From Sipunculus nudus (Eukaryota > Annelida > Sipuncula > Golfingiida > Sipunculidae): DNA of 64,000 bases. The stretch lies in the NCBI GenBank assembly GCA_026874595.1, contig CM049307.1, positions 39,412,862-39,476,861 on the forward strand, written 5' to 3'. Shown here piece by piece: positions 17,611 to 59,225 of this stretch. The stretch's first letter is position 1, and each line of letters starts with the position of its first letter. The position numbers were made by a program, and so were the translations under genes. The notes beneath the pieces were generated by a model. That model worked only from the letters and a program-made list of their open reading frames with translations. It was not told the DNA's origin and did no database searches.

Positions 17611-18151
17611 TATAGTCCGTTTCATCCCCTCATGTCCACCTGTTTTTTGCTATGAAAATTTTTAATAGGAACATTTCAAGGGAAACAATTATAGTGTAAA
17701 GGAGAGGATTACAGAACCTAATTTTCAACAAGGTAACTAAATTCCTACCTTATACCTTATTTGATTAACAGAATTTTCTGAAAATATGAGAAATCAGTCT
17801 ACATTTTACAACATATGAGACCCACTTATGGCGGTCAAGGTCATTGGTCACATGCAAAAACAGCCTCAGCTGACAGCTGCTGATTGGATGATCTCATGTA
17901 AACACTCTAAAAAATATAAACAGCTAAAACAAAGATGGCTACTTATGGAGGGACACACCACATCTGCCAGATCATGATAAAGAGACTAAAATGTTGTGAA
18001 ACATAAATGGGGGATTTATTGTAAAATTCTTAACTGCCATATTAGGTTGTCACTTCCATATGTTGTTTTCTTGGAAAATATTGAAAAATATTAACTTTTA
18101 AGTAAATCATCTACAAAAACAGGTGGACAGCAGGTGGTGAAATGGACTATA
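17611..18151. mobile_element. TIR element family 1, copy 2 (MITE-like)
   Basis: The termini are inverted: TATAGTCCGTTTCATCCCC at the left and GGTGGTGAAATGGACTATA at the right, followed inward on both sides by the CCACCTGTT/AACAGGTGG block. It is about 540 bp and non-coding. The interior has GCTGATTGGATGATCTCATG and ACAAAGATGGCTAC, shared with the copies at 5929 and 39825. The palindromic TATA at each border hides the exact TA target duplication. Confidence 0.85.
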
Positions 18152-20215: not shown

Positions 20216-22128
20216 TATCTTGCCACAAAGTGGCCGGGGCATATAGTTTTACCCATGTCCGTCATTCCGTCCTTCCGTCATTCCAAAATCAAACAGTTGT
20301 ACGGACTATTTTTCGCAATGCCTGCAGATATTGGCCTGATTTTTGGTGTGTGGGCAGATAATGACCAGTTACAGATCGAGTTTGCGTTTCGTCCCGGTTG
20401 ACTTTTTTGACAGTTTTTACGGCTCCTTAACATAGAAAATTTCATGAAAAATAGAAATTTTCATGACAAATACACATGTATGGACTTTTTTTCGCAATGC
20501 CTGCAGATATTGGCCTGATTTTTGGTGTGTTGGCAGATAATGACCAGCAACAGATCGAGTTGGCGTTTCGTACTGGTTGACCTACTTTTGACCGTTGTAC
20601 TGCTCCTGAACATAGAAAATTTCATGAAAAATAAAAATTTTCATAACAAATGCATATGAACGGACTTTTTTTTCGCAGTGCCTGCAGATCCTGGCCTGAT
20701 TTTCGGTGTGTGGGCAGATAATGACCAGTTACAGATCGAGTTTGCATTTTGTTCCAGTTGACCTACTTTTGACCGTTTGACAGTGCTCTAACATAGAAAA
20801 TTTCATGAAAAATAAAAATTTTCATGAGAGATGTGCATGTACAGCCTTTTTAGCCCTCAGCTCATAGGCTGATGGGCTATAGTCGTCACCCATGCTGTCC
20901 GGCTGTCTGTCCGTCCGTCCGTCCGTCCGTCCGTCTGTCCATCAAGTGTCTGTCCTGTGTCCGTTAACTTTTACCTTGTGAGCGGGATATCTCTAAAAGG
21001 ATTCACCGTCGGAATTTTATATCATCAGTGGAGATGTTTATCGATAAAATCTCGGTCAAGTTCGAAGATGGGTGACCTTGACCCATTTTTCTACATTTTA
21101 GAGCTGATTATAGAAAAACACTCAGAAGCTTATATCTCAGGAACCATTGTGTTGTTTTTCACAAAACTTACTATGATAATTGGGACTGATGGTATGTACG
21201 TTCTACACAATTTTAGTGGTGCCACCTGCAATTTCTGATTTTTTTTATCAATTTTTATTGTATTTTTAAATTTTGGCCATGTGAGTGGGATATCTCTAAA
21301 AGGATTCAACGTTGGAATTCAATTTCATCAGTGAATTTGTATATCAACAAAACCTTGGTCAAGTTGGAAGATGGGTGACCTTGACCTATTTTTCTTTGTT
21401 TTAAAGCTGATTATACAAAAACACTCAGAAGCATATATCTCAGGAAGCATTGTGGATTTTCACAAAACATACTATGATCATTTGGAATTATTGTTTGTAC
21501 GTGCTGCACAATTTTGGTGGCACCACCCACAATTTCTGATTTTTTAATGAATTTCAATCGGATTTTTCAATTTTGGCCTTTTGTGAAGATATCTCCAAAG
21601 GTATTCAACACAGGAACTTCATTTCTTCTGTGCTATTGCATGATATTTACAAAATCTTGGTCAAGTTCAAAGATGGGTGATCTTGACCTACTTTTCAAGG
21701 TCACAGAGCTTAGAATAGAAAAAAAAAACTTAGGAGCTTATTTCTCAGGGCGCATTTGGTGGATTATCAGGAAATATGGTACATACCTCTCCAATTTAAG
21801 TTTATAACTGATTATCAGCTTTTGCTAATATTCTAGTTCGCAATGCAATGCTTACAGATACTGGCCTGTTGTTTGGTCTGTGGGCGCATAATGACGAGTT
21901 CGCGTTTCGTCCCAGTTGACCTATTTTTGACCATATGACAGATCCTGACAGGCCTAATTTTTTGTGTGATGCTTGTTAATGACCCGTTACAGATCGAGTT
22001 TGCATTTTGCCCTCGTTGACCGACTTTTGATTAATGACAGCTCCTGAACTTTAAAAAATTGACAAAATTTATCAAATTTTTCTAATTTGCACCAGGCGGG
22101 GGCATTCGTGTCGTTCCGACACATCTAG
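20216..22128 (+). mobile_element. Helitron-like repeat family A, copy 1 (with nested family D block)
   Basis: The 5' part reads CACAAAGTGGCCGGGGCATA followed by CCATGTCCGTC; relative to copy 2 it has lost the leading ATGCCCCC. The body has three units of about 181 bp with CGCAATGCCTGCAGATATTG, then a D block (20846-21836), then further A units. The 3' end is GGCGGGGGCAT, a perfect hairpin GTGTCG-TTC-CGACAC (22108-22122) and ATCTAG, followed by T. Hairpin plus CTAG before a T host base is the Helitron-type 3' end. No Rep/helicase is encoded, so it is non-autonomous. The Helitron assignment is inference from structure. Confidence 0.75.
20846..21836 (+). repeat. Family D block nested in family A (three about 300-bp units)
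   Basis: It starts with TTTTTAGCCCTCAGCTCA, whose flanks fold (TAGCCC with GGGCTA), then runs of GTCC. Three units of about 300 bp follow, each beginning near GGATATCTCTAAAAGGATTC and containing GATGGGTGACCTTGACC. It ends in TTCTAG, after which the family A unit resumes (TTCGCAATGC). The start resembles that of family B, so D is probably a B relative inserted into A. Confidence 0.65.
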
Positions 22129-23139: not shown

Positions 23140-23400
23140 TTATAGCTCACTGACAGACGTTATTTGAGCTATAATTCGTCCACCGTCCGTCTGTCATTTC
23201 GTTGTACCGTTAACAGTGCACCATTTGTAACCCTTGGACCAAAGAGCCTGTCATTAAAAGAGGTTCCAGGTAAACATCCATAAAAATTCGAAAATAGGTC
23301 ACGGTGACCTATTTTCTACGGACTGCTGGGTAAACACAAACAGACAGACACTACTTAGTATTCAAGGTTGCTGGACTAATATTTTCATTGGATAATATGA
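23140..23400 (+). repeat. Degenerate family B 5' fragment
   Basis: It begins TATAGCTCACTGACAG with a facing TTGAGCTATA, then CCACCGTCCGTCTGTC, then one unit with AAAATAGGTCACGGTGACCT. This is the family B order of parts, but it stops after one unit and has no 3' hairpin. Confidence 0.6.
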
Positions 23401-23639: not shown

Positions 23640-23925
23640 TTTAGCCCCTTTGTTTTTCGCTCAGCTGGCTGTGATCGATCATGCTTTGTCCGTCGTCCGT
23701 CCCCTTCCATCGGGCAGTCTGATTGTCAGGGCACAAATCGCAGAAGCTCCTTACTTCGAGGGAGGTCCTTGACAAATTTTCTTGGACACCTGAAATTAGG
23801 TCACTGCGACGTATACTCTCTGAGCCATTCGGCCTGTTTGTGCAACCCATGATATTAAAAATTTGGTACAAATACTCCAGTACGCAAGTAACGCATGGAA
23901 TGCCATGATTCCTGCCTCGCATGTT
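23640..23925 (+). repeat. Degenerate family B 5' fragment
   Basis: It has CGCTCAGCTGGCTGTGATCG, then GTCCGTCGTCCGTCC, GGGCACAAATCGCAGAAG and CCTGAAATTAGGTCACTG. This is a single diverged B unit without a 3' end. Reading frames on both strands here are repeat-derived. Confidence 0.65.
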
Positions 23926-24925
23926 GATAATTGGCAGTTTAATTAGTTCCTGAAGACAAGTGCGTTACCTGTATTTTTTACGCATTGTTACGCATTTAAG
24001 AATTATTCCTAAAATTAAATAATGGGCACCTTTAAGTGGAATGGTTTTGAAGAGTTTTTCATTTCTTCTCCGATTTGAACAATATCATGATCATATTTGA
24101 AGTCTCTGGTTTGTCTTCCTGTCACATACATAACTTTTATATTGTTATTTAGCTATTGTGTTTGGAAACGTGACATCCTAATTGATTTTTAAACAATAAA
24201 TTTCGTTTGGTAATCTAAAACAGTACATTTCCCCAGCCTGATAATATAAGGAGTCACAATACATTTTATCTGATTTCACATTATATTAAAAGCTTAATCA
24301 GATACACTTGTAAAAGGAAGGAGTTTCGAGTTAAACCACGTATATTTATACACTAGTATATTGACGTACGTAACGCGCCAGGTTTTATGGGCTTATACGC
24401 TGAACTTACGAAGATTTCTAATTAGTTAACGAAACATTGACACAGACTAATGTTGTAATAATGAGTCCTGTCAACAACCGAGGTCCAGATAATCACACAG
24501 TTAATACATGCAGTTTACAATTGTTTCATAGTTACCCCGAAAAGTTATAACCACGCATGTTGTTATGTCACAGCAGACCTTTATTTAACATATATACAAT
24601 ATCAATAAAATCTGTCAACTATAACCTGATAAAAGATGATATATAACATCAGTACCAAACGTCCTGGTTGATATGTACTGGGATGTAAAGGTATTGTATA
24701 GCCTTTCAATATTTATGCCAAATGCATAATATAAGACTTTTCTTCTGTAATTATGAATATCCTGATGTATGAAAAATGAAATTTTTGTAGAACTTAACGA
24801 CCACAGGAAATTTCTTTTTTTTCTATGTGCACTGGGATTCCAAGGACCTGCATTTTACAGATTCTAGAGAAACAAGAAATTTCTGTGTCACTGCTGGTTG
24901 AAATATATGCCAAAGATTCCTTTTA

Positions 24926-25790
24926 ACTCAGCTCATTGTAAGTCAGTTTAGATATGTCGATGACCCTTTTTCTGATATGTCTGTCCGTCCGATCTTCCTT
25001 CACCGTGTATCCGTATAAAGACTCAGGAAGTCCGGATAGTAGTAAAGTATCTCACCATGACCTACTTTTTCCGAGTTATGTATCAAAAATATCGAAAACC
25101 ATCGTCCTTGTGTAATTCCAAATTACGTACTTTTTTCTATACTCTCTGCGTTACGGGATAAAAACACAGGCTTCAGCACCTCTGAAGTTATGACTCTCAA
25201 CAGTAATACTTCATACTAAAGGCCAACTTTTTCAGTAACTACCTGATAAATTGTCTTGGTTTTTCGAGCTGTGAGAATCTGACAGCTAAGGAAAACTTCA
25301 GCCACCGCCTACAATTTATCAATTTTATGTATTTTAATAGCAGTTTTGAGAATGACTTTGCTTTAACCAGGAGGACTCAAAGCCTCTAGGTCGAGAGTTC
25401 AAGTTATATACCGAGTAGTGGTCAGAGTTTTCACGGTCATTCCCTACCAAGGGTGAGCGCTCTGTATGCTCAGTGGGAAGGCTTTGTCCCACAGCCGTGT
25501 ATCACTCACCAGTGAATGCGTCTTCGTTTGTTTTTTTTGTTTTTTTACCCAGTAGTGGGTATGATTACACACCATGGACCCGCATGTGACACCTTATCTG
25601 GGCGAAACCATGATACAAAATAATATGATAAGAACCGAGCTCTGAGATACTTGAATTAAGATAAGACGTACAGCATAAAAGTGGAGACGGTCAACTCCGC
25701 CAAAGTCATTGTAATATATATTTACGTTCTACAGTCTCTAGAAATATGGATGCAGCTGAGCGTCATGACCCATTGGCCCGTACGAAATTG
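24926..25790 (+). mobile_element. Family B element, degenerate, interrupted by a SINE
   Basis: The 5' part (ACTCAGCTCATTGTAAGTCA, then TGTCTGTCCGTCCG) and one unit (CTCACCATGACCTACTTTTT) are followed by a SINE-like insertion at about 25358-25640. A decayed B 3' end, GCAGCTGAGCGTCATGACCC then ATTGGCCCGTA, lies at 25752-25782. The hairpin has lost several pairs, which suggests an old copy. Confidence 0.55.
25358..25640 (+). mobile_element. tRNA-type SINE, 5' degenerate copy
   Basis: It is related to the SINE at 61449: both contain a TTTTCACGGTC block, AAGGGTGAGCGCTCTG-like and AGTGGGAAGGCT blocks, CCCACAGC, and a downstream GATACAAAATAA tail. A weak box-B-like GAGTTCAAGTT is retained, while the box A region is unrecognisable. 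Confidence 0.6.
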
Positions 25791-27189: not shown

Positions 27190-27335
27190 GTGGCACTCTC
27201 CACCGCTCAGGTGGTGACCTGTAGGGGTGGAGGACATCGGAGAAACCCAGTAGTCAGGCAATCCACTCCTAGCCACGCCCGGGATCGAACCAGCTCAAAT
27301 GTCCGGGCTCCCTTGACGAGTGACCATGGTTATTT
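27190..27335 (-). mobile_element. SINE-like fragment with box B
   Basis: On the minus strand it reads GGAGCCCGGACATTTGAGC, then GGTTCGATCCCGGGCGTGG (a near-perfect RNA polymerase III box B), then GGGTTTCTCCGATGTCC. A good box A is not seen. It differs from the SINEs at 25358 and 61449 and lies in the presumed 3'UTR of the glycosyltransferase. Confidence 0.5.
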
Positions 27336-27778
27336 AGAACCATAATAGATATGTCGCATTATTTCCCCTAGTGTACTGTTAGAATCTTTCATTTCCTGTA
27401 CGCTGTTTGGAATGTGACCGCAACTTCTCCAAACATGCACCGCATAGTTCCTACTCCAGTCGTAGTGAGACGCCACGAGTTTGTGGCACTCCATGACGTT
27501 TGGCCGAAAGAAAGATTCTCTTTCGACATTGACATGTTGGGGATATATCTTGTGTAGTTTTACTGGAAGTGCTAAAGAGTGGTAACCATAATTTTTGGGA
27601 TTATAATTACGATAAGCTTCCATCCAGAGGCGAATAAACGGAGCCGCTTGACGCGCCAACAGAATGGCGTTACACCACCTTCCGACGCCAGTGCTACCAC
27701 CTGTCATCTCAAAACACCTCAAAGGATCAAATGATGCCACCGGTAACACGTCCGAATCCACATAGATCCCACCGTAAT
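27330..27778 (-). CDS. GT32-type glycosyltransferase, exon 2 (catalytic DxD to C-terminus)
   Basis: This exon follows a CTTTGTCTCAG acceptor and completes the protein to a TAA stop at 27330-27332. The split aspartate codon (G|AT) gives LSDYGGIYVDSDVLP across the junction. Its DSD (residues 255-257 from the ATG at 29415) is the metal/sugar-nucleotide DxD of the Gly_transf_sug family. Downstream are GGSTGVGRWCNAILLAR, PFIRLWMEAYRNYNP, NVERESFFRPN and YDWSRNYAVHVW, a C-terminal layout typical of animal GT32/alpha-1,4-glycosyltransferase-like proteins. The N-glycosylation sequon NST is near the end. The sugar specificity cannot be read from sequence. A PF04488 search would be decisive. Confidence 0.9.
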
Positions 27779-28673
27779 CTGAGACAAAGAAAAGGAGAAT
27801 CATGTTTTACTAATTATAGATATATAATAATAATGCATTCCTTTTTACCTCTAAGAGTTTTTATTTGAAGCAAAGTAGAAAGAGAGTTAAAATTGAATGT
27901 TAAAAAAACAACATATTTAATTCTCTACCGAAAAATATTTGAAAATAAATAGTCAGCCCAAGTCCAAATCAACACATCCTCCTTGTTCTTTTGGATTCTT
28001 TAAAATTTTGAGCGCGTCCTATTTCCGTTTTCAAATTCCCGCAATCATTCGAGGATCCAAGACGCAGTTTACTTGAATTGGTGTAGGGTTTGAGAGGGGA
28101 AATTTTCCAGTTTTCAAGACAATATGAAACAGTTCATGCGGGGGGTAATAGCATAAAAGTAAAATAAAGAAAAATATAATAAATCGCAATTTGAATCGTT
28201 GGTATGAATATGGCCCATGTGTCTCTGGGTGACAGCACCTTGGACACTGTAGATCTGGTAAACGTTTTGTCTTATCTATGGGAAAACCCACATAATCTAT
28301 AGGCGCCAGTTGACAGAGATGAAGGAAACAATTTTATATTTAAAAGGTAACGCTATACGTCATGGTGACTTATCACACTACAACAGCCAGAATGTATCAT
28401 ACCTGAAGTCGTGGCAAGCTTGGGTCCTTTTACTCGGTGGGTATCATAGTTAAGACAGGCGGAGATGGTAAGACAAATATAGGTGTCGCTCTTGGAACTT
28501 TCTGACCGCCTCATACCACACGCATTTCTCAGAACCTGGCTAAGTTCTGTTGATGCCATTCAACAGCTAATTTTATAACCAAATCGGTGAAACTTAAAGG
28601 ATTATGTGACATTAACTAAACCTGTAAGCAGATGGAGAACAATGGATTCTTCCGTGTGCAATTTTTTTCTTAC
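27779..28673 (-). other. Intron of the glycosyltransferase gene
   Basis: An 895-bp intron with consensus GTAAGA donor and TCTCAG acceptor on the minus strand. It contains two short same-strand frames (28353-28559 and 28031-28291), one with a hydrophobic stretch, neither with a recognised domain. Confidence 0.8.
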
Positions 28674-29415
28674 CTGAGAGTATCTGAAGCCTGTAGATGT
28701 CGGACACGTGTTGAATGTATATAATTTCGTGACCCATATAATGTGTTAGTACCGGGACTCTGACGTGGTATAAATTAGAAACTCTCGCGAGAGTTTCCGT
28801 CCACCAGTGACCGGAAGGGATTACATCCCCATGCATAAGAATATAATCCGGTTTAATGTATCGTTCTATTCCTAAGAAGGAGATAAAGTTTAGAAATGAC
28901 AACTCCGTTTTCTTAAACCACACAACATGAACAATGTTAGGAACGGGGTTTTTGCATCCAGGTTCCGAAACGGTCTTTTTCCGGACTTTCATAAAAGAGA
29001 GTAAAACAGGTTCGGTGCCGCTATATGCCTTCACATTTTCAGGAAACCTTAAAGGTTCACCAGTTTGCGCATAAACCATATCCCGTGTGAGATCCCAAAA
29101 GTGAGAGGGTTTACCAAGGCATTGTGCAATTATGTCTCCGTTCCGTGTTTTATACGTTGCGGTGCTTAGTCTGTGCTCATCATGTGTATAGTTCCGTCTG
29201 AGGCAGGTTTTGGCTATTTCCAGATGACCTCCTGCACCAGGGCAGGCTCTTTCAATCTTCATCCTTAAATCGTCCAGATATTCTTCAGCGCTCTTCTGAC
29301 TGTGGGAACCAGTGAGACCAAAATCAGATGATATGCCGATATAAACAACAAAAAGACAGATGCTCACAATCTGCAAGAATATGAAAAATCCCTGCGCCTC
29401 CAAACGTGTTGTCAT
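28674..29415 (-). CDS. GT32-type glycosyltransferase, exon 1 (anchor, stem, first part of catalytic domain)
   Basis: This exon encodes 247 residues plus one base and ends CTCTCAG|GTAAGA. From the chosen ATG the order is: a short cytoplasmic tail (MTTRLEAQ), one membrane anchor (about residues 9-28, GFFIFLQIVSICLFVVYIGI), a stem, then the catalytic start PNIVHVVWFKKTELSFLNF, YILMHGDVIPSGHWW and IIYIQHVSDIYRLQIL. This is a Golgi type II topology. NYT in the stem is a glycosylation sequon. The frame is open to another ATG at 29556, which would add 47 residues with a second hydrophobic stretch. I prefer 29415 because it has A at -3 (29556 has T) and gives a standard short tail. The gene stands alone, with flanking repeats on both sides. 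Confidence 0.88.
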
Positions 29416-29556
29416 GTTTCTTAAAAACAGCCTTTTTGAGAACTCCCATGAAAAAAAAATTATTATAAAATTATAAACCAGATACCATTTGAGCGTGCAT
29501 GTTTGATGCCGATAGTCTTTATGGCGGCGTGTCTTCTTATTCCGAACATTATACAT

Positions 29557-30154
29557 GTATGCTTTTTATAGTGAGGCAAAGGTTGTTTTTATGAGGTTCC
29601 ATTTTATGAATACATTAATGTATATAAGTAAAGGGGTCCGATGATAAAATAATAGTTATTGTCCACTCCGACTATTAGCCATAAGGTGCTTAACACAAAG
29701 ATGGCTGCCACACCTCAGTCATGGCGGTATCCAAATGGCCCGTCCCTCGTATAGATATGAACACAAAGAAAAGGAGATACCATTAGCGTGTTGAAAGCAG
29801 AGTCTGCTATGTACTGCATATATATGAGGCATAAAAACACCTCGACTGTCTTTGATCTGCTTCGTTCCTACTTTTTCTTATTTGTAAACTTTTCAGGTTG
29901 GGTCTCCATTAATTAGGTTTCTTTTGATGAAGACGCATATTATACTGAAATATCATCTTTCCTTTTGACATTTTGGATTTGGAAAATGGAAACATTCTTT
30001 TGAAATATTGCATTCAAATGTTTGAGTGCCACAGTTTTTCCTTTGAAAGTTTATTAAGAATGTAATAAATGGTTATACTATTTTTTTTTTAAATTCTAAA
30101 ATAAGAAAAATATATATCATTTTTGAAAGACATGGGAAATAAGTCGATGGGTTT
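29557..30154. other. Presumed 5' flank of the glycosyltransferase, no gene
   Basis: AT-rich DNA with an ACAAAGATGGCTGCC motif (YY1-like) near 29697. No exon seen. The promoter should lie here or just inside 29416-29600. Confidence 0.4.
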
Positions 30155-33100
30155 TTAGCTCAGCTGACTTTCAGTCATGCTGAGCTATAGCGATCACTCT
30201 TTGTCCGTCGTCCGTCTGTCCGTCTGTCCATCTGTCCGTTAACCTGGCACAAATCGTAACCGCTGGACTTAGAATCTTGTAACTTTACATTCTGAGAGGT
30301 CAATGAAAAATCTTCTTGGAAACCAGAAAATAGGTCTCTGTTACCCATATCCTTCGAGCTATGGGGCCCCAAAGTACCCCCCCCCCCCCAGAAAAGTAAA
30401 AAATTTCATACAAAAACTTCAATATCTCATTAACTACTTGACTGATGGTCATGATTTTTGGCATACATATTGATCATGAGATGTTCCATCAGTTCCTGAG
30501 GACTGGTGGCGCCACCTGTATTTTTCGATTTTTTACGAATTTTTTTTCTCTATTTTGATACCTTTAAAAATGTGAACATCTGTTAACAAAGCACAAATCG
30601 TAACGACTGGACCTAGAATCTTCATTCTCGACACACTGAGAGACCTATGGAAAGTCTCCATGGAAACCAGAAATTAGATCTCTGTTACCCATATTCTTTG
30701 AGCTATGGGGCCCCAAAGTACCCCCCAGAAAAGTAAAAAATTTCATACAAAAACTTCAATATCTCATTAACTACTTGACTGATGGTCTTGATTTGTGGCA
30801 TAACTATTGATCATGAGATGTGTCATCATTTCCTGCAGACTGGTGGCGCCACCTGTATTGTTGGATTTTTTATGAATTTTTTTTCTCTATTTTTGAGACC
30901 TTTAAGGATGCTGTCATCTGTTAGCGTGGCACAAATCGTAACGACTGCACCTAGAATCTTCATTCTTGACACACTGAGAGACTTATGAAAAGTCTCCGTG
31001 GAAACCAGAAATTAGGTCTCTGTTACCCATATCCATTGTGATATGGGGCCCCAAAGTACCCCCCAGAGTAGTCAAAAATTTCATACAAAAACTTCAATAT
31101 CTCAATAACTACATCACTGATGGTCATGATTTTTGGGATACATATTGATCAAGAGGTGTTTCATCAGTTCTTGCAGACTGGTGGCACAACCTGTATTTGT
31201 TCAGGGTTTTTTTTTACGATTTTTTCCTCTATTTTTGAGACCTTTAAGGATGCTGTCATCTGTTAGCGTGGCACAAATCGTAACGACTGGACCTAGAATC
31301 TTCATTCTCGATACACTGAGAGACCTATGAAAAGTGTCTATGGGAACCAGAAAATTAGGTCTCTGTTGCACATATCCTTTGAGCAATGGGGCCCCAAAGT
31401 ACCCCCCAGAGTAGTCAAAAATTTCATACAAAATCTTCAATATCTCAATAACTACAACACTGATGGTCATGATTTTCGGCATACATATTGATCATGAGCT
31501 GTTCCATCGCTTTCTGCAGACTTGGTGCGCCACCTCTATTTTTTTCAAATTTTTACGAATTTTTTTTCTCTTTTTTTGAGACCTTTAAAGATGTGGTTAT
31601 CTGTCAACAGGGTACAAATTGCAACAACTGGACCTAGAAACTTCATTCTTGTCATGCAAGGAGGCCCATGAAGAGTGCCTGTGGAAACTTGAAATTAGGT
31701 CTCTGTTACCCATATCCTTCAAGCTATAGGACTCTGAAGTATCCCTCAGAATAATGGACAATTTATGATACAAAATCTGAAGTATCTGAACAACTAATGC
31801 GGAGATCACCATGATTCTTTGCATGGATATTGACCATTAAGTGTTTTTATTAGTTTCTGCAGACTGGTGGAGCCACCTGTTTTTTTGTATCCTCCAAAAC
31901 AAAGTTTTGCAGATACTATGTTTTTGACCGGGTTCCTCCGCCGCCGCCACGTTTGTTTCCAGAGAGCTCCTCTGAGAAAAATGGACCGATTTTTCCGAAA
32001 CTTACACCAATTATCTAGTCACATGTGAACTAGTGCCTAACCAATTTGTGTTGATCTCTGACCTTTCCCCTCTATCCAGCGTCCATTTGTGCATCTGTTT
32101 CCACACATAAACCCTCATATCTCGGGAACCGATTGACCAATCAGGAAATAAAATTTATACAAATGTAGCCCTTGGATTGCTTTATAACATACACAAAAAT
32201 GGTGGCGCCACCTATAACCATGTTTGCACAGTGTCCATCTGTTCATCTGCCTTGGGTTAAAATCACTTATATCTCTGCAGTGAATTGACTAATTCACCTG
32301 AAATTCGGCATGCATATACATCCAGGATAGCTTTCTTGATTTTATGACAGATGGCACCACCTACATTCACGTTCAAGCTGATCACATCCAAGCTCATATC
32401 TCAGGAACAGTTTGACCGATTGGGCCAAAATTTTGCATGTGTATAGATATCACATAGCTTTTTATCATACGCAAAACTGGTGGCGCCACCTGCAACCATT
32501 TTTGCACAGCGTCTGTCTGTTTTCTGCCGTGGGATAATGTCACTCATATCTCGGCAGTGGTTTGACATATCTGCCTAGAATTTTGCAGTTTTATACATCC
32601 TGGATAGCTTTCTTGATTTTATGACAGGTGGCGCCACCTACATTCTAGTTTACACTGCAGACATCCGAGCTCATATCTCGGGAACCGTTTGAACGATTGG
32701 GCCAAAATTTTTCATGTGTATAGATCTCACATAGGTCAACTGGAGGGGCCACCTGTAACCATTTTTGCACAGCGTCTGTCTGTTTGTCTGCCGTTGGCTA
32801 AAATCACTCATACACATGTAGTGGTTTGACTTTTCTGCCTAAAATTTTGCATATGTATACAACTTGGACATCTTTCTGGATTTGCGGTAGGTGGCACAAC
32901 CTACATACACATTTAGGCTGCAGACATCCATGCTAATATACAACATACCTCACTCTATTTCCCCTTGCCACTCAATCCATGCCTCACTTCAACCGTTCCA
33001 CTCTGATTTTGGCGGATACACGTGATCACTTGTCGGCTACCCGTATTCTAGTTTTTAAAGTTTACACATTTTTTCTCTATTTTTGAGATATATAAATAAA

Positions 33101-33234
33101 GACTAAATCTTGGCCTGTTGGTTAATCTGTTTGATGCTTCAGTTGAATGGGTAATACTACCATTCTGATGATAAAATTTCCTTTAGCGAATCTCTTCCCT
33201 GTCAGCTGAGCGACATGACCCATGGGTCACTTGT
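30155..33234 (+). mobile_element. Helitron-like repeat family B, long near-complete copy
   Basis: The 5' end is a hairpin at 30157-30186 (AGCTCAGC pairing with GCTGAGCT, TGACT with AGTCA, loop TTC), then TTTGTCCGTCGTCCGTCTG. The first body has five units of about 340 bp beginning near 30246, 30588, 30929, 31271 and 31611 (GGCACAAATCGTAACGACTG). The second body (about 31900-32940) has a different unit of about 270 bp (TTTTTGCACAGCGTCTGTCT). The 3' end has TCAGCTGAGC (33202-33211, the reverse complement of the 5' GCTCAGCTGA), the perfect palindrome TGACCCATGGGTCA (33216-33229) and CTTG before T. No protein is encoded. Confidence 0.8.
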
Positions 33235-33908
33235 TTTATATGTGATTCTATACTGATTGATCTAACCTGAATATAAAGGTCGTATATTAGCGGTGCCACT
33301 TCGTTCTCTCCCTTTAGATAACAGTACTCATAAAATTTAAGTTGAACCGTAACCACTAAACCCGAAGCGGATCCAGGAGGAGGGAGGGTCATCGAGAACA
33401 AGACATGCACCCCGCCTTTCCAGCCGCGGCAACATTTTTAAGGGTTTCAGGCCATATCTTTGCGGCCTGGACACCCCTTTTCCAGTCCTGGGGACCTTTT
33501 TTTTATTATTATTTTTTTGTCTTGATTCCTCCAGGGCTGGACCCCTCCTTTTCCTTAATCCTGGATCCGCCCCTGTAAAAAGAGCGACACAATGATGATG
33601 TCATAGCAAGTTATATATACCAGAAAAGTCATGTTTACTTTGTTCTATACTCGGATTTATCATAAATTAATTTTGCACGTCGTGTAGTCCCATGTATTTT
33701 CATGTATGGCACACACCGAAATAATAAACACGCATTGGTATTTTATTATCTATATATAAAGATAAAGAGATGATAATTATTTTATTCTGACACAATTACT
33801 ATATATATTAATTTTTAATTTACACACGCGTACGACCGTCCGCATTTATACGTATAAGTCCACTTACACGATAATGATTGCAATTTAATAAATGGAACCT
33901 GACAAATA
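33235..33908. other. Intergenic DNA, no gene
   Basis: Includes a short C/T-rich stretch near 33360-33580. Nothing else recognised. Confidence 0.4.
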
Positions 33909-34038
33909 CAGTCCACACCCTCCCCACTGCGCAGCCGACAATGCTTTAACTGATATCACTAAATGTCAACTGCCTAGATGTGTTACATTCTAGACCTAGT
34001 AGCTATTTATTTATTTGAACTTTTGTTGTACAAAATAT

Positions 34039-35735: not shown

Positions 35736-36949
35736 TGGGTCCTAAGGCATTAAATTGTTCAATGCAAAGGAAAATCTGAAACAAAGTCGGTTCATGTGGG
35801 GGGACCATTCCTGCTTCCTTTAATCAGAATGGACAATTTTTATATTTGCGGCCACCATGGACACCTGCATAAGTGTGCAAGGGATGTATATTTTATTTTA
35901 GGGTTAAATGACTCATTAGAACACCGCTTCTTTGATCCAGCAATGGTTTTAGAATCCCATTTCCACAATTTGACATGATGGGACTTTTGTTACAGATTTA
36001 ACTTTGTCTCCAAATCACAAAAAGAGGGAAATTCATCCCCAACAGAGATTTTGACTGCCATGGTGCTGACAAGCCACTATTAACTATCCTTGATTTTAAC
36101 CCTTTATTCTATGTGAAGCCCTAAAGACCAACATATATTCAGTATCTACTCACTCACTACTCACCAGGAACTCAGAATCTGCTCTCTACCCACTAGTGGT
36201 ATTAACTTATGAAATCATTGGTGTACCTGATTGCCAAACCATTAAGCTAATAAATACCCACAATAACATCAGTGGATCATAAAAAGGGGTCTAGTGCAAA
36301 ACAAACAATAAAATGTGTACACTGCATTATAATCACTTGACCTGGTCAGTCAATGAAATGCAAATACATGCTTTTGAGATACATGTAGTGTTGGTGTTTG
36401 TATTCTAGTGCATAAGAATTAAATTTTTACTGTATTTTAATATTTTAATTACATGAAATGTGATTCTGCATTTAGTGTTTTCATTTTCCTAGTTGAAAAT
36501 CCAACCCTGTTACCTTTTTTTTTCTTAATTCAGCAACATTTTACTCACTATTACTAGTAGGTGTAGAATGTCTGACACCTAGGCAGTAGACACTTATTGA
36601 TATCAGTTAAAGCATTGTCGGCTGCGCAGTGGATGGAGTGTGGACTGTCTAGGAATGTCGGCTGCTTAGACACTTCCTTTGATAATAGTCATTATTTACA
36701 TATTATAAGACGAATATATACTGCCATCTGGGGTCGATATCACGAATTAGATTCTGTTATGATATGAAGTTCTTTTATAGTTTAAATAACAAGCGTTTGT
36801 CTAACTTGCCTTGTCACATAGAATATGTATTAAAATATGCATCAAATATATCGGATCAGCTTAAATTAGACGTGAGCATTTTGACTGTAAGTAGTTAATA
36901 TTCAGCTCAAGACGTGTATAAAAGAAAAAAAGTGGTCAGTGGTGATGTA

Positions 36950-39824: not shown

Positions 39825-40363
39825 CTATGGTCCGTTTCATCCCCTCATGTCCACCTGTTTTTTGCTATGAAAATTTTTATTATAAAATTTCATTATAAGG
39901 GAAACAATTCATTGTAGGTTAGAGGATCAAAGGACTTAATTTTCAACAAGGTAAATAAATACCTATATTTAAGAAACAGAATTATTTGAAAACATGAGAA
40001 ATCAGTCTACATTTTACAACATATCAGACTCAATTATGGCGGTCGAGGTCATTGGTCACATGCAAAAACAGCCTCAGTTTACAGCTGCTGATTGGATGAT
40101 GTTATGTACACAATCTAAACAATTTAACCAGCTAAAATAAAAAATGAAAGATGGCTACTCATACAGGGACACATCATATCTGCCAGATCATTGTGAAGAG
40201 GCCAAAAAGCTGTGAAACATAACCTGTACATATATTAAAAAATTCTTAAATAACATATAAGGTTTTCACTTTCATATGTAGTTTTCTAGGAAATTATTGG
40301 AAAATATCAACTTTAAAGAAAATCTCCAAAAACAGTGGACACAGGTCAGTGGAATGGAGTATA
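39825..40363. mobile_element. TIR element family 1, copy 3 (MITE-like)
   Basis: The left end is TATGGTCCGTTTCATCCCC then TCATGTCCACCTG; the right end is CAGGTCAGTGGAATGGAGTA. It matches copy 2 over almost its whole length, including CAAGGTAAATAAATACCTA, GGTCATTGGTCACATGCAAA and AGATGGCTACTCAT. Non-coding. Confidence 0.85.
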
Positions 40364-41846: not shown

Positions 41847-43720
41847 AGCTCAGCTGACTGAAAGTCATCTCAGCTTTAGTGATCACCCTTTGTCCGGCGT
41901 CCGGCCGTCAGTTAACAGGGCACAAAATGTAACTGTTTGACCTAGAAACTTCTAATTGAACATCCAGGGATGTCCGGGGCAAATCTCCTTGGAAACCCCA
42001 AATTAGGTCATGGTGACCTATATTTTGTGACTTACGGGCCGAAAACATGATTTTGAGCACCCAAACAGTCAGACAGGGCACAAATTGTATCCATTAGGCC
42101 TAGAATCCTCTAACCTGACATTAAAAAAGATCCTAGGCAAATATCCATGGAAACCTGAAACTAGGTCACTGTGACCTATATTCTCCGATCTATAGGGAAA
42201 AGATGTCATATGAGCCTCCTGAATGTCACATGGGCACAAATCTTAATTATTTGACCTAGATTCTTCTTACTGTCTATCCAGAGAGGTCCTTGGCAAATCT
42301 CCTTGGAAACCTGAAATTAGGTCATGGTGACCTATATTTTGTGACCTACAGGCCATAAACATGATTTTGAGCAACCAGACAGTCAGATAGGGCACAATTT
42401 GTATCCATTAGGCCTAGAAACCTCATAAATTGCATTAAGGTAGATCTGAGGCAATTGTTCTTGGAAACCTGAAATTAGGTCACCATGACCTATATTCTGT
42501 GACCTATAGGAAAAGATGTTGTATAAACACCCTAAATGTCAGATGGCCACAAATCCCATCTGTTAGGCCTAGAATCTTCTCACACAATATCTTGGGAGGT
42601 TCTAGGAAAATCTCCTTGGAAACCTAAAATTAGGTCATGGTGACCTATAATTTGTGACCTACAGGTCAAAAGCATGATTTAAGGTACCCTGAATGTCAGA
42701 TGGGCACAAATTTTTTCTGTTAGGCCTAGAATCTTTTAACGCAACATCCTGGGAGGTCCTAGGCAAATCTCCTTGGAAACTTGAAATAAGGTCATGGTTA
42801 CCTACATTTTGTGACCTACAGGCCGAAAACAGGATAATGAGCATCCAGAAAGTCAGGCAGGGCACACATTGTATTTGTTAGGCCTAGAATCTTCATATGT
42901 AACTTTCTCAAATATTCATGGCAAAGGTCCATGGTATACTGAAATTAGGTCCCTATGACCTATTTTTTGTGACCTATAGGAAAAGAAGTCATATTAGCAC
43001 CTAGACAGTAAAACAGGGTACAAATTGTATTTATTAGGCCTAGAATGTTCTAATGTAACATTGAGGGAGGTCCTAGTCAGATGTCCTAGGAAACCTGAAA
43101 TTAGGTCATGGTGACCCATATTCTGTTGGGCTGAAAAATGATTTTGAGCACCAAGACAGAAAAGGCAAAAAATGTATCCATTAGTCCTAGAATCACAATA
43201 TCCTGGGAGATTCTAGGCAAATCTCCTTTGAAACCTGAATTTAGGTCATGGGTTACCTATATTTTGTGACCTTCAGGCAGAAAACAGGATTTTGAGCACC
43301 CAGAAAGTCAGATAGGCCTAATGTTGTATATGTTTGGCCTAGAATCTACTAATGTGACATTCTGAGTTGTCCTTGGCAAATGTCCTTGGAAAACTGAAAT
43401 TAGGTCACCATGACCTATATTTTGCGACCTTTAGGAAAAAATGTCATACCCAGACAGACTGGGCACAAATTGTATTCAATAGGTAATAGAATCTTCTTAC
43501 GCAACATCCTAGGAGGTTCTAGGCAAACCTCCTTGAAAACCTGAAATTAGGTCATGGTGACCTATATTCTGCAAGCTACTGACCAGAAACATGATTTTTA
43601 GCAGTCGGACAGGACACAAATTGTATCCACTAGAGCTAGACTCTTCTAACATGACATTGAGGAAGTCCTTGGCAATTCTCCTTTAGACACCTGAAATTGG
43701 ATCATGGTGAGCTTTATATT
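41847..43720 (+). mobile_element. Family B element with about twelve 153-bp units
   Basis: The 5' end is AAGCTCAGCTGACTGAAAGT (TGACT/AGTCA stem, loop GAA), then TTTGTCCGGCGTCCGGCCG. Units start near 41929, 42078, 42232, 42390, 42546, 42703, 42862, 43015, 43163, 43313, 43459 and 43614, each with GGGCACAAATTGTATCC-like, GGCCTAGAATCTTC and CTGAAATTAGGTCATGGTGA blocks. The mean spacing is about 153 bp. No 3' hairpin is found; the array decays near 43720. Confidence 0.85.
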
Positions 43721-45662
43721 CTGCTAGCTAAGCCAGACTTTTTTAATTCTTTGGTTTACGAACATGTTTGACTAAAGTGATAGGTAGGAGGTAGGGAAAA
43801 AAAAAAAAATGGAACAAACCTGGATACTGGTGTTTGTGAATCCTGTATTGTACAGTTGGGTTATAAAATTCATTTTTTAAATGGCACTATATTAACCTAT
43901 ATAAAATATATAAAATAATATATAAAAATTAAAAAATTATCATCCTCTTGAGTTTTCCACATGAATCATGCGTGTGCCTTGTTATTTCAAGCCATTAAAA
44001 TGTCATTGAAGGTAAAATAATGACAAATAAAAGTTTAAACAGTAACACTTATAAATGATTTCATACGCACCTGAAATAAAACTTCAGTCACTGCCCATTG
44101 TCAATTAAGTGAACTGTCTTTTTTATAGTTTTACAAATTAAAGATCAGTCAAATACTTTAAAAAAATACAAAATAATATATTTTTGTCATATATACAAGG
44201 AGAAAACTAAATATTCACTGCTAGCATGATAGACTGCAGTTTTTATTTTTCCGTCGTGAATGACAGTAACAATGACAATATGCAACTTGCAGTTATTTGC
44301 CTATTGTTTATCAAAAATTCAAATGTCAACAACATGGAACTCGAAGTTGTTTGATTCATGACCATGACCTTTTCTTTTTTGTGTTGCGCATGTTTGATAG
44401 TCCTTTGAATATACAACAACTGCTAATAAAGTGAGGTTACCTTTGGAGATCACATTGAATAATTCAACTATTTTAAAAGTTTAAAAAGTATTAATAATCT
44501 TTATTTATTAATAAAGATCTGCATTTCTTACCACGGCCGTGAAAGTACGTACCGTACTCAGTTTAATATGCCGTCAGGCGTCACTTGGCCACTGTCAGTC
44601 CGGTATTGCTTTTCGGCATCCATACTCATCAAAGCTTCCATCACATCCGTTTGGAACAATTAAATGAATCCTTTCAAAGTTTCTGCATTTTAAATGGCTT
44701 TCATTTTAGCTTGCTTTTGTTTTGACTGTAAAAATACCCACAAAACCTACGCTTCACATAAACCCGCGCCACTAAGACTACAGATAGTCGGAAATCCTGC
44801 AGAAACCCTGAGAATTCCTGGAGTCTTAAAAGAAAACATGACGACCTGGCCTGATGCAGTATATAATTTCATCTGTTCAGTAATTTTCTTTTAAGCGTCA
44901 CAAGACTACGTTTTTTAGTTTTGACAGGTTAAAACTTTTTAAGAGTAAATTTGTGAAACTTAGCCAATTTGCAGTAATAAATAGTGTCTGACTTTGAGTG
45001 CAATAATCAGTATTAAGAAGTAAATTTGTTTGTATATCTAGCAAGTTATTAACAGTGGAAAGCTGGTAAAGCCGCTATGCAACCAAACTAATTTTCTTTT
45101 CTAATTCACATCTATCTAAAACAAATATGCTTAACGAGGTAAATATGACAGAAACGCTGGTTTAAAAATGTACTGTAGTGCAGAAAACTCTCCAAGAATT
45201 CTCAATTTCCCTGCTGAACCTTTTGACTACTTGATGGCCAATCAATTGCATTTATGGCCCAAGGATACCCTATTGTGATTGGCTTAAACCCTCCCTCTCT
45301 CATTACGAAAGTGACCTTAGCCAATTAATTAGCCAATCATAAGAGTTCTAACGTTTGAGGTGATCTAATACACACGGTCACTGAACATTTCATTTGTCAA
45401 CAACCGTGTTGGATTCGGCGACGCAATATAAAAGGAAAAAAAAGTCAAAATGCCAATTTTATTTTTTTTCTGAAATGAGGATGTCGGAGGTCGGCGGGTT
45501 TATAAACCGAAAAATTGAAAAAATTCTGGCCCTATGGACCAGAAACATGATGTTGAGCACCCAGACAGACAGGGTACAAATTGTATCCATTTTCCTTGGA
45601 ACCCTGTATTGTGAAATCCATGGTATTACTGGGCAGCTCTTCTATGAATCCTGAATTTTTTA

Positions 45663-48293
45663 TTAGCTCAGCTGACTATAAGTCATCTGAGCTATAGTCG
45701 TGGTCCATTGTCCGTCGTCCGTCCGTCTGTCCGTCCGTCCGTCCGTCGTGCCGTCCGTAGATGTGGCACGTTTTGAAACCGTAAGACCTAGGAATCCAAA
45801 ATTCGGCATAATGTTAGATGTCCCCAAGATCTCCTACCAAGCCGAAAACTGGGTCTTTTCGACTTCGTTCCTTTGAAAAATTAAGGAAAAACCTCAATTT
45901 TTTATTAAAAACCTATTTTCACACTTCAGGACTGCCTAATATTAAAACCACTCATCTGTTTTTCCTCATATTTACCATAGATATTCCTCTATATAGTTCC
46001 TATGTACATTCAAGAAATTGTCTGTATTATATAATTTAAAAAAGTTATGGACCCAAACATAATGCATTTTGTAAAAAATCAGGAAAGATATTTGATCACT
46101 TAACACAAAACATGTTAAAGCTATGGACCTTTTTTCCAGTAATATAACTTTAATTAATCAAAATTAAATTTTATACCCAAAATTAGATGAAAATCTTTTA
46201 AATTTTTTAAAATATTAATAAAAATAAAAAATTGGTACCTTAAATTTTGCCCAACTTTGACCATGGCACGTTTTTTCCTGTAAGTACTGTGGATTTAATT
46301 TTCACAGCATGATTTTGCTATCTTTACAACTGTTAACACCAAAAATTAGAAACCAGTTGATCAAAAACTGTAGATTTTATTCAGGTTTTCAAGCACCATG
46401 TAACATATTTTTTACATCAAGCTAGTGTTATGCAGTTTGCAAGAGCTCAGCTCCCCAGCTTCAGCTCTTAGTTCCTTAAATTCGGCATACAGCTAGATGT
46501 CTCCAAAATCCCCAACCATGCCAAGAATTTGGTCACTAGGACTTAATACCTTCAAGATATTATTGAAAAACTTCATTTTTCCATTAAAAACCCATTGTTA
46601 CACTTCAAGACTGCCTAATATCAAAACCACTGATCTGACTTTAATCATAAATAATATACATATTTTTCATTCTCTATGCACATGCCAGAATGATATCAGT
46701 ATTGCATATTTGTTTTAAATTAGGGCCCAAACATAATGCACTTTGTAAAAAATCAAGAAATATATTTACTCCCTTAAAAAGGAGATTTCTGAAGCTAGAG
46801 ATTTTTTGTCAGGGATGTAACATTATTTAATCAAGATTCAATTGAATACCCAAAATTAGTTATGAATTTTTCAAATTTTATAAGTTATTAGTATAAATGT
46901 AAAATTAGTACCTTAAATTTTGCCCAACTTTGACCATGGCACGTTTGTTTCCTGTGAGCACTGTTGATATAATTTTCATATCATGCACACATAAGGATTT
47001 CAGCTTAAAATTTTAGAAAGCTGAAAGAAATTGGCCAAAAATTGTAGCTTTTATTAATGTTTTTATGAGACCCTGTCAGACTTTGGCTCTCTCAAGCCCC
47101 TCTTGAGTCACCTGTATGTTGACCTTGTTGAACTTTCAGCAAATTATGCATGCTTGAGGCGAGGCATACACGGGGGGAATCCAGGCAGCTTATGGCCAGC
47201 CACAGTTGATCCAGGTGTCCAACCCAACTCATCTAGTAGTTTTAACCAACTACATAACAATAAACAATAAATTAATAAATTTTTATTGGTTTTGTAATAA
47301 TAAATTAAAGAAAAATAGAAAAGGAATTTGTTAGTTTATAATAACAGGAAATTAACTTGCAGTTACTGATGATATAAGAATCTTGTATCGATGGATAGAA
47401 TGTCACGTATTCCAAATAACACCATGCAGTCACCTATGGTATTTTTCAGTTCAATTTTAATGATAAAGAAGTAAATCATATTATTCATTACTAATCATTA
47501 GGGATCATATGATGGAAATTAATGATAGACAAAGATGCAGTTGATAATATTAATCTAGATTCCTACTGTGTCTAGTGTGTACATTGATGTGAAAATAGTC
47601 CAAAATGAATTTATTACAGTTATTTTTTAATATAAATAAAAGCCATAAAACCAGGTACTTATGATCATTATTTAAATGTGTGAATTTTGTATATTCTGGA
47701 TTCTCAACATCATTGTTTGGTGAAAACTGAATAAATACCAGACATGGTGCGAATACTTTGTAATTGTATTTAAATACGAATATGATTATGTAATCCATTA
47801 TAAATTTCTTGCATAAAGAATGGGAATTCAGGTAAAAATGAAAGTATATGAATACCAGTGCAAATACTTTCAAAATGTATTCATGAATGCATTCATGAAT
47901 ATATTCTTTAATATTATTTTAATAATCATTTCAGTTATATTTCATTTTAAAAAATCATGATTCTCTTATTATTTTAATAAAAATTATATTAGGGACAATA
48001 TTTGTAATTTTTTTTAATTAATAGTTAAACCCTTATATTATATATTCTGCTTATAATTTATATGGCCAAGTCAAAATCTGTGTGACAATAGTACTCCATT
48101 TGTTAATAAAATAAATGAAATCAATCCTCTTCCCTGTCTCCAAAGGTACTATCAAAGTCATACATAAGCTAAACAACAACAACTCATAATACAGCTTATA
48201 TTTATTACCACACAAAACCAGCATGTGCCTCATTTCTAAATAATATTTTTAATCATATATAACAGCTGAGCGTCGTGACCCATAGGTCCCTTG
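45663..48293 (+). mobile_element. Family B element with long (about 670-bp) units
   Basis: The 5' hairpin at 45665-45693 (AGCTCAG/CTGAGCT, TGACT/AGTCA) is followed by GTCCGTCGTCCGTCCGTCTG and more GTCC. Units with GTGGCACGTTTTGAAACC-like blocks start near 45766, 46264 and 46936, and the GACTGCCTAATATTAAAACC block recurs. A 3' end, CAGCTGAGCGTCGTGACCC, hairpin GACC-CATA-GGTC (48277-48288) and CTTG, lies at 48263-48293. The 47110-48260 stretch is AT-rich with no clear units, so attribution of this 3' end to this 5' end is likely, not proved. Confidence 0.65.
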
Positions 48294-48389
48294 TTTTCTG
48301 TCCATTATTCAACACAGTTTCATTAGCCATAGGCTATTCTCACAGACAATATATAACAATAATAAAAGAAATGAGCACCCAGTCAAATT

Positions 48390-48421
48390 TAGCTGAGCAT
48401 CATGGCCCATGGGCCACTTGT
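48390..48421 (+). repeat. Second family B 3' terminus
   Basis: It reads TAGCTGAGCATCATGGCCC then the rest of the perfect palindrome TGGCCCATGGGCCA (48403-48416), then CTTG before T. It lies about 127 bp after the previous B terminus, with no 5' end of its own nearby. Confidence 0.75.
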
Positions 48422-56375: not shown

Positions 56376-57139
56376 GTCAGTGCAGCATGTTGATATATAC
56401 ATTCAACCTGAAGGGTACATCCTTCCTTCAAAATTCTAAAAAGTTATTAAACTTGATTGTAGATGTAATTCAAGTACTTGAAATGTCAGTAAATTTCAGA
56501 ACATGTTATAGGAAGGCAAAATACTGCCATTAAAGTTGGATGTCTAAAAAGTTTTCTTATGTGTTGAATATTTATGTTATATCCATCTATAAAAGTTACC
56601 CATGGAATATCATTGTGTAATGGATCTAATCTGCAGAATAATAATAATTTTGCATTTGCCTTTTGCATAGTCTGCTAGGAAATCTTTATTATATACAATA
56701 TAAATGATCTTGAATTTATACACAATAAATAGCTTCAACATTGCTGAATGTTCCTTCAACTTTGACAAAAGACTTTGGGATGGTACATGGGAAAAACAAA
56801 ATTGAAAAAAAAAATGATTCAGACTTTTAATAACTGATTACAGTTTAATTGAAGGGTTGCAACTCAGTGCATCAATTGTTCCATGCTACACCCCTAAATT
56901 GATATGATCAACTCCTGGTGCTTCATTTACAAGTCATCCACTCCTTGTTTATTGACTCATTCTGCTCTCTTAACCCTGCAACCTTTAAGCAGACTTGTTC
57001 ACATTTCCTTACAGACTGATGATATTGGCTCCTGTGGGTGAGGCCTGGGAAGGTCCTGGGAACTTCTAATAAATGTTTTATTACATGCCAAGTCTTTGTT
57101 ACTTTGTTTAGTTGCAGCCTGACTTGCTTTTCTTACAGT

Positions 57140-58846
57140 TTTTTATGCCCCCACCACAAAGTGGCCGGGGCATATAGTTTTACCCATGTCCGTCCTTCTG
57201 TCCTCCGTCCTTCTGTCATTCTGAAATCAAACAGTTGTACGGACTTTTTTTGCAATGCCTGTAGATATTGGCCTGGTTTTTTGGTGTGTGGGCAGATATT
57301 GACCAGTTACAGATCGAGTTCATGTTTCGTCCCGGTTGACCTACTTTTGACCATTTTACGGCTCCTAAACTTAGAAAATTTCATGAAAAATAGAAATTTT
57401 CATGACAAATACACATGTACGGACTTATTTCGCAATGCCTGCAGATATTGGCCTGATTTTTAGTGTGTGGGCAGATAATGTCCAGTTACAGATTGAGTTC
57501 GTGTTTCGTCCCGATTGACATACTTTTGACTGTTTTACGGCTCCTTAACTTAGAAAAATTCATGAAAAATAGAAATTTTCATGACAAATACACATGTACA
57601 GACTTTTTTTCGCAATTCCTGCAGATATTGGCCTGATTTTTGGTGTGTTGGCAGATAATGACCAGTTACAGATTGAGTTTGCATTTCGTCCCGGTTGACC
57701 TAATTTTGACCGTTTTACGGCTCCTAAACTTAGAAAAATTCATGAAAAATAGAAATTTTCATGACAAATACACATGTACAGCCGTTTTTAGCCCTTAGCT
57801 CATAGGCTGATGGGCTATTGTCGTCACCCAAGCTGTCCGTCCGTCCATCTGTCTGTCCGGTGTCTGTTCGTCCGTCCGTTCCGCGTCTGTTAACTTTTAC
57901 CTTGTGAGCGGGATATCTCTAAAAGGATTCACCGTTGGAATTTTATTTCATCAGTGAAGATGTATATCGATAAAATCTCGGTCAAGTTGGAAGATGGGTG
58001 ACCTTGAACCATTTTTCTACATTTTAGAGCTGATTATAGAAAAACACTCAGAAGTTTATACCTCAGGAACCATTGTGTGGATTTTCACAAAACTTACTAT
58101 GATCATTGGGACTGATGGTCTGTATGTGCTGCACAATTTTGGTGGCGCCATCCGCAATTTCTGATTTTTTAATGAAATTTTATCTGATTTTTTCAATTTT
58201 GGCCTTTTGTGCAGGATATCTCCAAAGGTATTCAACACAGGAACTTCATTTCTTCAGTGCTATTGCATTATTTTTACAAAATCTTTGTCAAGTTCAAAGA
58301 TGGGTGATCTTGACATACTTTTCAAGGTCACAGAGCTTAGTATAGAAAAAAACTTAGGAGCTTATTTCTCAGGCAGCATTTGGTGGATTGTTATGAAACA
58401 TGGTATATACCTCTCCAATTTAAATTTATAAATGATTATCAACTTTTGCTAATATTCCAGTTTCGCAATTCAATGCTTACAGATACTGGCCTAATGTTTG
58501 GTCTGTGGGCGCATAATGACCACTTACAGATCGAGTTTGCGTTTCGTCCCAGTTAACCTATTTTTCACCATATGACAGATCCTGAACATAGAAAATTTCA
58601 TGAAAGACATAAATTTTCATGAAAAATGCACATATATGGACTTTTTTTCACAATGCCTGCAGATACTGGCCTGATTTTTGGTGTGTTGCTTGATAATGAC
58701 CCTTTACAGATCGAGTTTGCATTTTGCCCTTGTTGACCTACTTTTGACCATACAACACCTCCTGAACTTAAAAAATTTTACAAAATTTAACAAATGTTTC
58801 TAATTTGCCCCAGGCGGGGGCATGCGTGTCGTTCCGACACATCTAG
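57140..58846 (+). mobile_element. Helitron-like repeat family A, copy 2 (with nested family D block)
   Basis: The 5' end is complete here: TTTTTTATGCCCCCACCACA then AAGTGGCCGGGGCATA. Three 181-bp units (about 57239, 57420, 57600) precede the D block (57781-58460), then A units resume. The 3' end has GGCGGGGGCAT, the perfect hairpin GTGTCG-TTC-CGACAC (58826-58840) and CTAG (58843-58846) before T. ATGCCCCC and GGGGGCAT are the subterminal inverted repeats. Confidence 0.8.
57781..58460 (+). repeat. Family D block nested in family A copy 2 (two units)
   Basis: It starts TTTTTAGCCCTTAGCTCATA, then (GTCC)-rich DNA, then two units of about 300 bp (GGGATATCTCTAAAAGGATT near 57910, and the variant at 58216). 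It ends at TTCCAG just before TTTCGCAATTC, where A resumes. It sits at the same point in A as the block at 20846. Confidence 0.65.
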
Positions 58847-59225
58847 TCTCGTTTTGCAGTGCAGTGCATACAGATAATGGCCTAATGTTTGGTCTGAGGG
58901 CGTATAATGACCACTTACAGATCAAGTTTGCATTTCATCCCAGTTGACCTATTTTTGACCAAATGACAGATCCTGAACATAGAAAGTTTCATGAAAGACA
59001 GAAATTTTTATGAAAAATGTATGGACTTTTTTTCAAAATGCCTGCAGATACTGGCCTGATTTTTGGTGTGTTGCTTGATAATGACCCGTTACAGATCGAG
59101 TTTGCATTTTGCCCTTGTTGACCTACCTTTGACCATACGACACCTTCTGAACTTTACAAAAAATTTTACAAAATGTTTATAATTTGCCCCAGGCGGGGGC
59201 ATTCGTGTCATTCTGACACATCTAG
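58847..59225 (+). repeat. Tandem extra 3' half of family A
   Basis: It repeats the last 380 bp of copy 2 directly after its CTAG. Its end is GGCGGGGGCAT, hairpin GTGTCA-TTC-TGACAC (59205-59219) and CTAG (59222-59225) before T. Confidence 0.85.

Follow-up and report, generated by a model that had tools for sequence, protein, structure and literature searches.

Probable non-autonomous Helentrons carrying satellite-like tandem repeats in a 64-kb stretch of the Sipunculus nudus genome

Three repeat families (A, B, and C) in a 64-kb stretch of Sipunculus nudus DNA, referred to here as the window, are very probably non-autonomous Helentrons (HINEs) with satellite-like tandem repeats. Most likely, they represent an ordinary type of rolling-circle transposon that encodes no protein and is already known from oysters and fruit flies. 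The parts follow one another in a set order, namely a T-run, a 5′ subterminal repeat, an inverted copy giving a 5′ hairpin, a GTCC microsatellite, tandem repeats, a 3′ subterminal repeat, a hairpin, and finally CTAG or CTTG followed by T. The initial annotation attributed a shared order of this kind to all three families and assigned them to a Helentron/DINE-1-like class. The order is found in A2 and in family B and only partially in family C and in A1, while the class assignment, with corrections, is supported by a part-by-part match to the printed plan of HINEs and DINE-1-like elements.

Architecture of the three families

All element coordinates given below refer to the + strand. Family B includes a complete HINE-like element, B1 (30157..33233), which opens with a 5′ subterminal inverted repeat (subTIR, 30158-30168), a 5′ hairpin (30156-30187), and a GTCC tract (30202-30239). 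These are followed by an array with a unit of ∼338 nt (30238-31727), a second array with a unit of ∼277 nt (32187-32939), a 3′ subTIR (33201-33211), a hairpin (33216-33229), and CTTG ending at 33233, after which the sequence reads TTTT. The inverted repeat described for the family is present on the 5′ side of three copies (GCTCAGCTGA at 30158, 41848, and 45666), and its exact counterpart TCAGCTGAGC occurs at 33202 only. B3 (45665..48293) encloses a different body within B-type ends; it has a 5′ end at 45665, a GTCC tract at 45710-45758, a 3′ end at 48263-48293, and, in the way of central repeats, only a two-copy 147-nt repeat (46130/46803). B1 and B3 have their first ∼80 and last ∼35 nt in common, but not their bodies.

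B2 appears to be an outer element extending over 41847..48420, with a 5′ end at 41847, a tandem array at 41918-43603, a B2-like body fragment at 45531-45591, and a B-type 3′ end consisting of AGCTGAGC, a hairpin, and CTTG at 48391-48420; a 1.8-kb segment of this interval (43740-45530) has no explanation. Two B-type 3′ ends, at 48293 and 48420, lie downstream of 45665. The B2-like body reappears just before B3, and the simplest reading is that B3 is nested in B2. Alternatively, the two 3′ ends belong to B3 alone, much as A2 possesses two. Two further B-type features and a degenerate module were absent from the initial annotation, as were the paired 3′ ends of A2 and downstream of 45665 and the B-like 5′ modules of A1 and A2 described below. 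B4 (23658..25780) is a decayed element whose 3′ end lacks CTTG, and it contains the degenerate second 5′ module (24921-24991). A B-like 5′ module at 23143..23196, which includes a GTC tract, precedes a B2-like body fragment (23247-23320), and downstream of it no 3′ end was found that matches the module's 5′ repeat over 8 nt. An old B element may have left remnants at 5682-5728 and 7229-7257, which weakly match the profiles of the B 5′ and 3′ ends (E 0.073 and 0.0023, respectively).

In family A, the A1 copy (20216..22128) combines a 5′ module that lacks a good 5′ subTIR, a 181-nt array (20301-20825), another 5′ module of B-like type that includes a GTCC tract (20847-20961), and a 3′ end made of GGGGGCAT, a hairpin, and CTAG at 22128. 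The A2 copy (57145..59225) contains the 5′ subTIR ATGCCCCC, a 5′ hairpin (57144-57174), a 180-nt array (57236-57789), a further 5′ module that is B-like and has its own GTCC tract (about 57785-57887), and two 3′ ends with CTAG at 58846 and 59225. ATGCCCCC had also been attributed to the copy at 20216, where it is absent; it occurs once, at 57145, and the 5′ repeat at 20216 is degenerate or cut. The 3′ repeat of the family, GGGGGCAT, stands as described at 22098, 58816, and 59195. The terminal ∼390 nt of A2, including the 3′ end, are duplicated in tandem (58453-59226), the copy abutting the first end. Just downstream of A2 lies a degenerate 20-nt tandem array (TGTCCTGTTATGTTACATTA, 59509-60080).

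Family C displays fewer HINE features than A2 and B. C1 (13624..15404) has a 5′ end and parts of its body in common with C2, up to 15404; it had been presented, as the copy at 13615, as an element with the full plan, and no 3′ end was found for it. C2 (48854..51557) has a 5′ end at 48854, a 177-nt array (49442-50026), a second stretch resembling the C 5′ end with no GTC tract (50862-50928), a 3′ subTIR (51528-51538), a hairpin, and CTTG ending at 51557. The inverted repeat proposed for the family is accordingly seen as GCGAACCTGTG at 13625 and 48855 and as CACAGGTTCGC at 51528.

Describing the families as unrelated proved too strong. Since modules are shared between A, B, and C copies, the families are not fully separate: a B-like 5′ module occurs in the A copies, and a body repeat is common to B1 and C1, the second array of B1 being related to a stretch of C1.

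Hairpins, boundaries, and chance expectation

The 5′ and 3′ subTIRs are exact inverted repeats over 11 nt in B1, 11 nt in C2, and 8 nt in A2; the pair is missing from A1, with its degenerate 5′ repeat, and from C1, where no 3′ repeat was found. DNA folding of the inverted repeat (IR) beside the 5′ subTIR yields a hairpin in A2 (-10.5 kcal/mol), B1 (-12.6), B2 (-6.0), and B3 (-10.6). It yields none in B4 (-1.5 kcal/mol), in the module at 24921 (0.0), or in family C, whose 5′ ends fold poorly (C1 -1.2, C2 -0.7). On the 3′ side, folding places a stem of 4-6 bp just inside the end in seven of eight cases, the eighth being the decayed B4. In line with the CTAG-T or CTTG-T endings of the initial annotation, CTAG-T in A or CTTG-T in B and C closes seven 3′ ends (22128, 58846, 59225, 33233, 48293, 48420, and 51557); the 4-6 bp hairpin immediately precedes this motif in all seven, and the decayed B4 end has neither. 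A two-sided base-pair change is present once in each of three hairpin alignments (B1/B2 3′, the two 3′ ends of A2, and B2 5′), in which 85-100% of cells pair. This covariation does not exceed that of shuffles, 166-242 of 500 of which reach the same count, and in alignments of three to four sequences it is no proof.

Tandem Repeats Finder detects central arrays, an optional feature of HINEs, in A1, A2, B1, B2, and C2. It also detects tracts of GTCC type at 20897, 30202, 45710, and 57189. A GTC-rich stretch in every family, as previously claimed, holds for A and B; C1 contains only a short one, and C2 has none at a threshold of either ≥4 or ≥5 GTC per 40 nt. With ≥5 GTC in 40 nt, six of seven tracts on the + strand and none of one on the - strand adjoin 5′ modules as judged by eye; with ≥4 GTC, the same judgement gives 10 of 16 on the + strand and none of 10 on the - strand. 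Markov controls contained 2-8 and 0-8 tracts.

A loose structural scan for an exact 10-nt inverted repeat, a hairpin, and CTWG-T, with no 5′ IR, performs at chance level, giving four matches on the + strand and none on the - strand compared to 0-4 in 20 Markov sequences and three and zero in the reversed sequence. For this reason the scan was extended by the 5′ IR and set to an 8-nt repeat. The resulting whole-plan scan requires an 8-nt inverted repeat, an inverted copy of 6 nt adjoining the 5′ repeat, a T on the 5′ side, a 3′ hairpin, and CTWG-T, all within 300-5000 nt. It returns five matches on the + strand and none on the - strand, compared to a mean of 0.47 and a maximum of three in 60 second-order Markov sequences and one and zero in the reversed sequence. 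Four of the five belong to families A and B (two from the A2 5′ end, one for each 3′ end of that element, then B1, and the B3 5′ end with 48420), and the fifth, an AT-rich match at 50339-53475, looks like chance. C2 is recovered only by the looser scan that omits the 5′ inverted copy.

Alignment of copies locates some of the boundaries. The expectation that copies stop at the hairpin ends is borne out for B at both ends and for A at the 3′ end. Agreement among B copies starts at the T-runs at 30152, 41842, and 45660 and ends 4-5 nt past CTTG (33237/48297 and 33238/48425); among A copies it ends 1-4 nt past CTAG (22129/58847 and 22132/59229). Alignment does not confirm the A 5′ boundary, since agreement between A1 and A2 starts only at 20223/57154, a position within or slightly past the A2 5′ subTIR. 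The C1 and C2 5′ ends agree from 13615/48845, at a T-run, and the C 3′ boundary is drawn from structure alone because only one C 3′ end is available. These alignments bear on the reading that the repeats are local satellite arrays, whose flanking similarities reflect chance or convergence and involve no transposon ends. Tandem repeats do make up much of the length, and the loose scan by itself is not significant; nevertheless, the same ends enclose different bodies in B1 and B3 and agreement among B copies stops at both proposed ends, and this reading is very improbable.

TT stands directly before six of eight distinct 5′ ends and after six of seven non-decayed 3′ ends, compared to a TT frequency of 0.108 in the window, although these counts partly follow from the placement of ends beside a T and from the T that belongs to the motif after CTWG, and they describe the flanks only, not insertion into TT. 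A duplication of fixed length had been named as counter-evidence to the class assignment, and by eye none abuts the ends. The longest strings common to the two flanks measure 0, 5, 5, 5, 5, 5, 9, and 9 nt in eight rows; among 4954 random pairs of T sites, 4231 share 4-6 nt and 35 (0.7%) share ≥9 nt. The two 9-nt strings are TTACAGTTT, which flanks the whole A2 composite on both sides (57133-57145 and 59226-59240) and is a possible 9-nt duplication, and an AT-rich string at C2. Their presence in two of eight rows exceeds the random T-site control and is not predicted by insertion without duplication. Such strings, the inverted repeats at both ends, and the filing of DINE-1-like elements in this group by some earlier authors (PMC4067079) speak for MITE-like elements that move by cut-and-paste, bounded by short subterminal inverted repeats and leaving target-site duplications. 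This origin is very unlikely, as the ends are asymmetric, with the 3′ repeat ∼20 nt inside the end and before a separate hairpin, and the flank strings range from 0 to 9 nt with no fixed length. When flanks of 150 + 150 nt were joined into eight queries representing seven elements (C1 and the 23143 module, having no 3′ end, were omitted, and in five of the eight queries the 3′ end differed by 1-4 nt from the listed position), no junction-spanning paralogous (empty) site was found inside the 64-kb window.

Relation to known elements and proposed mechanism

The closest counterpart by plan is the Cg_HINE group of Crassostrea gigas (PMC7492417). The left side of these elements consists of a 5′ subTIR, an IR, and a microsatellite (GTCY, GTCC, or GTCK in several), the centre of satellite-like repeats, and the right side of a 3′ subTIR and a palindrome; insertion is into T-rich sites and shows no trace of duplication (PMC7492417). 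Some carry two arrays, some families are unrelated in all modules, and both orientations are present in the oyster (PMC7492417). Families A, B, and C share this set of parts with them, together with microsatellites of GTCC type, double arrays, and T-rich flanks, a likeness in described plan, so that the label ‘oyster-type’ would denote resemblance to a published plan. Cg_HINE monomers average 140-180 nt (PMC7492417), whereas units of ∼314-338 and ∼277 nt also occur here. Two 5′ modules per element (family A) and doubled 3′ ends (A2) do not figure in the portions of the Cg_HINE account drawn on here, which mentions tandem whole elements for Helitrons (PMC7492417). The combination of unrelated families and one plan is already described for oysters (PMC7492417; PMC11136912). 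Pearl elements (CvA, CvE, and CvG, which have a structure in common and different sequences; PMC11136912), DTC84, and MgE of bivalves likewise hold short central arrays between conserved flanks, by description (PMC7492417; PMC11136912).

DINE-1 follows the HINE plan with an IR and the mite HINEs (HINE-Mo) follow it without one (PMC4067079). Both resemble the present elements in their subTIRs, microsatellite, central repeats, 3′ stem-loop, and TT preference, and DINE-1 also in its IR (PMC4067079); they differ in sequence and host, and no autonomous partner was found here in the window. Helitron2 elements have hairpins at both ends, asymmetric inverted repeats (ATIRs) of 8-15 nt, and a 5′ T (PMC3627910). 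A2 and B1-B3 are similar in their ATIRs, hairpins at both ends, 3′ repeat just before the hairpin, and 5′ T, while family C lacks the 5′ hairpin. Helitron2 is grouped by Rep/helicase phylogeny, and no such protein was found in the window; some of its members show duplications of ∼7-19 nt (PMC3627910).

Canonical Helitrons (Helitron1), which begin with 5′ TC, close with CTRR at the 3′ side, and insert between A and T, are a very unlikely source. The CTAG end of A fits CTRR, yet 5′ TC is found in none of the tabulated elements, CTTG closes B and C, the flanks are mostly T-T, and A2 and B1-B3 possess 5′ hairpins and subTIRs; the candidate fails on the 5′ end and, for B and C, on the 3′ end. CTRR is described as a canonical Helitron feature (PMC4067079), and the parts of published HINE descriptions used here name no 3′ letters as defining. 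The CTTG ends should not count as evidence against Helentrons because CTRR defines canonical Helitrons.

As HINEs, the elements would be mobilised in trans, by analogy with published elements, through a Rep/helicase(/endonuclease) protein whose gene lies elsewhere. The enzyme would nick at the T beside the 5′ hairpin, and rolling-circle replication, the mode suggested by the same elements, would follow until it stopped where the 3′ subTIR and 3′ hairpin mark the CTWG|T end. By the same analogy, the 3′ subTIR could pair with the 5′ subTIR, and the single strand would then be joined into a T-rich site. What the window itself contains is the order of parts, the ends of agreement (both in B, 3′ in A), the T flanks, the shared modules, and the doubled ends.

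Surrounding sequence and strand orientation

No Rep/helicase matched among the 77 stop-to-stop open reading frames (ORFs) of ≥80 aa in the window (Pfam, E 0.01), a scan that would miss shorter exons or decayed pieces. The sole Pfam matches in this set are Gly_transf_sug (27330-27806, - strand, just below the cut-off) and one FAM234A/B propeller. A 317-aa open frame at 28612-29565 (- strand) has no match in Pfam or to solved structures (PDB). The exact end patterns have no matches in viral and prokaryotic contig collections, which says little given those hosts. Two other repeats lie in the window. A pair of 95-nt inverted arms (33908-34002 and 36554-36648), 86% complementary and 2.55 kb apart, is possibly another DNA transposon, and a separate dispersed family occurs at 6094-6196, 17758-18020, and 39966-40236 with 78-89% likeness.

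Every element traced in the window points the same way. All 13 stretches matching the 5′-end profiles at E <0.01 (13613-57857; two of A, three of C, and eight B-type) are on the + strand, although the profiles, unlike the structural and GTC tract scans, were built from + strand copies, and the stretch at 50862, which has no GTC tract, was itself a profile row. Only three matches below 0.01 fall on the - strand, and these are the same palindromic hairpins read backwards. The GTC tracts that adjoin 5′ modules are likewise confined to the + strand. As nested and doubled modules are not independent, the orientation signal perhaps amounts to eight or nine insertions, and it is a lead, not a result. 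Bacterial IS200/IS605 elements target the single-stranded lagging-strand template. Should the one-sidedness hold along chromosomes and track fork direction, Helentrons might choose the same kind of target, a proposal that is at present improbable.

HINE-like elements carrying tandem repeats can be dense, the 64 kb considered here having ten 5′ modules that bear GTC tracts. Their modules also get reused, as seen in identical ends on different bodies, two 5′ modules per element, doubled 3′ ends, and, probably, one element inside another. For the field these elements are a confirmation; the one-sided orientation alone would raise a question.
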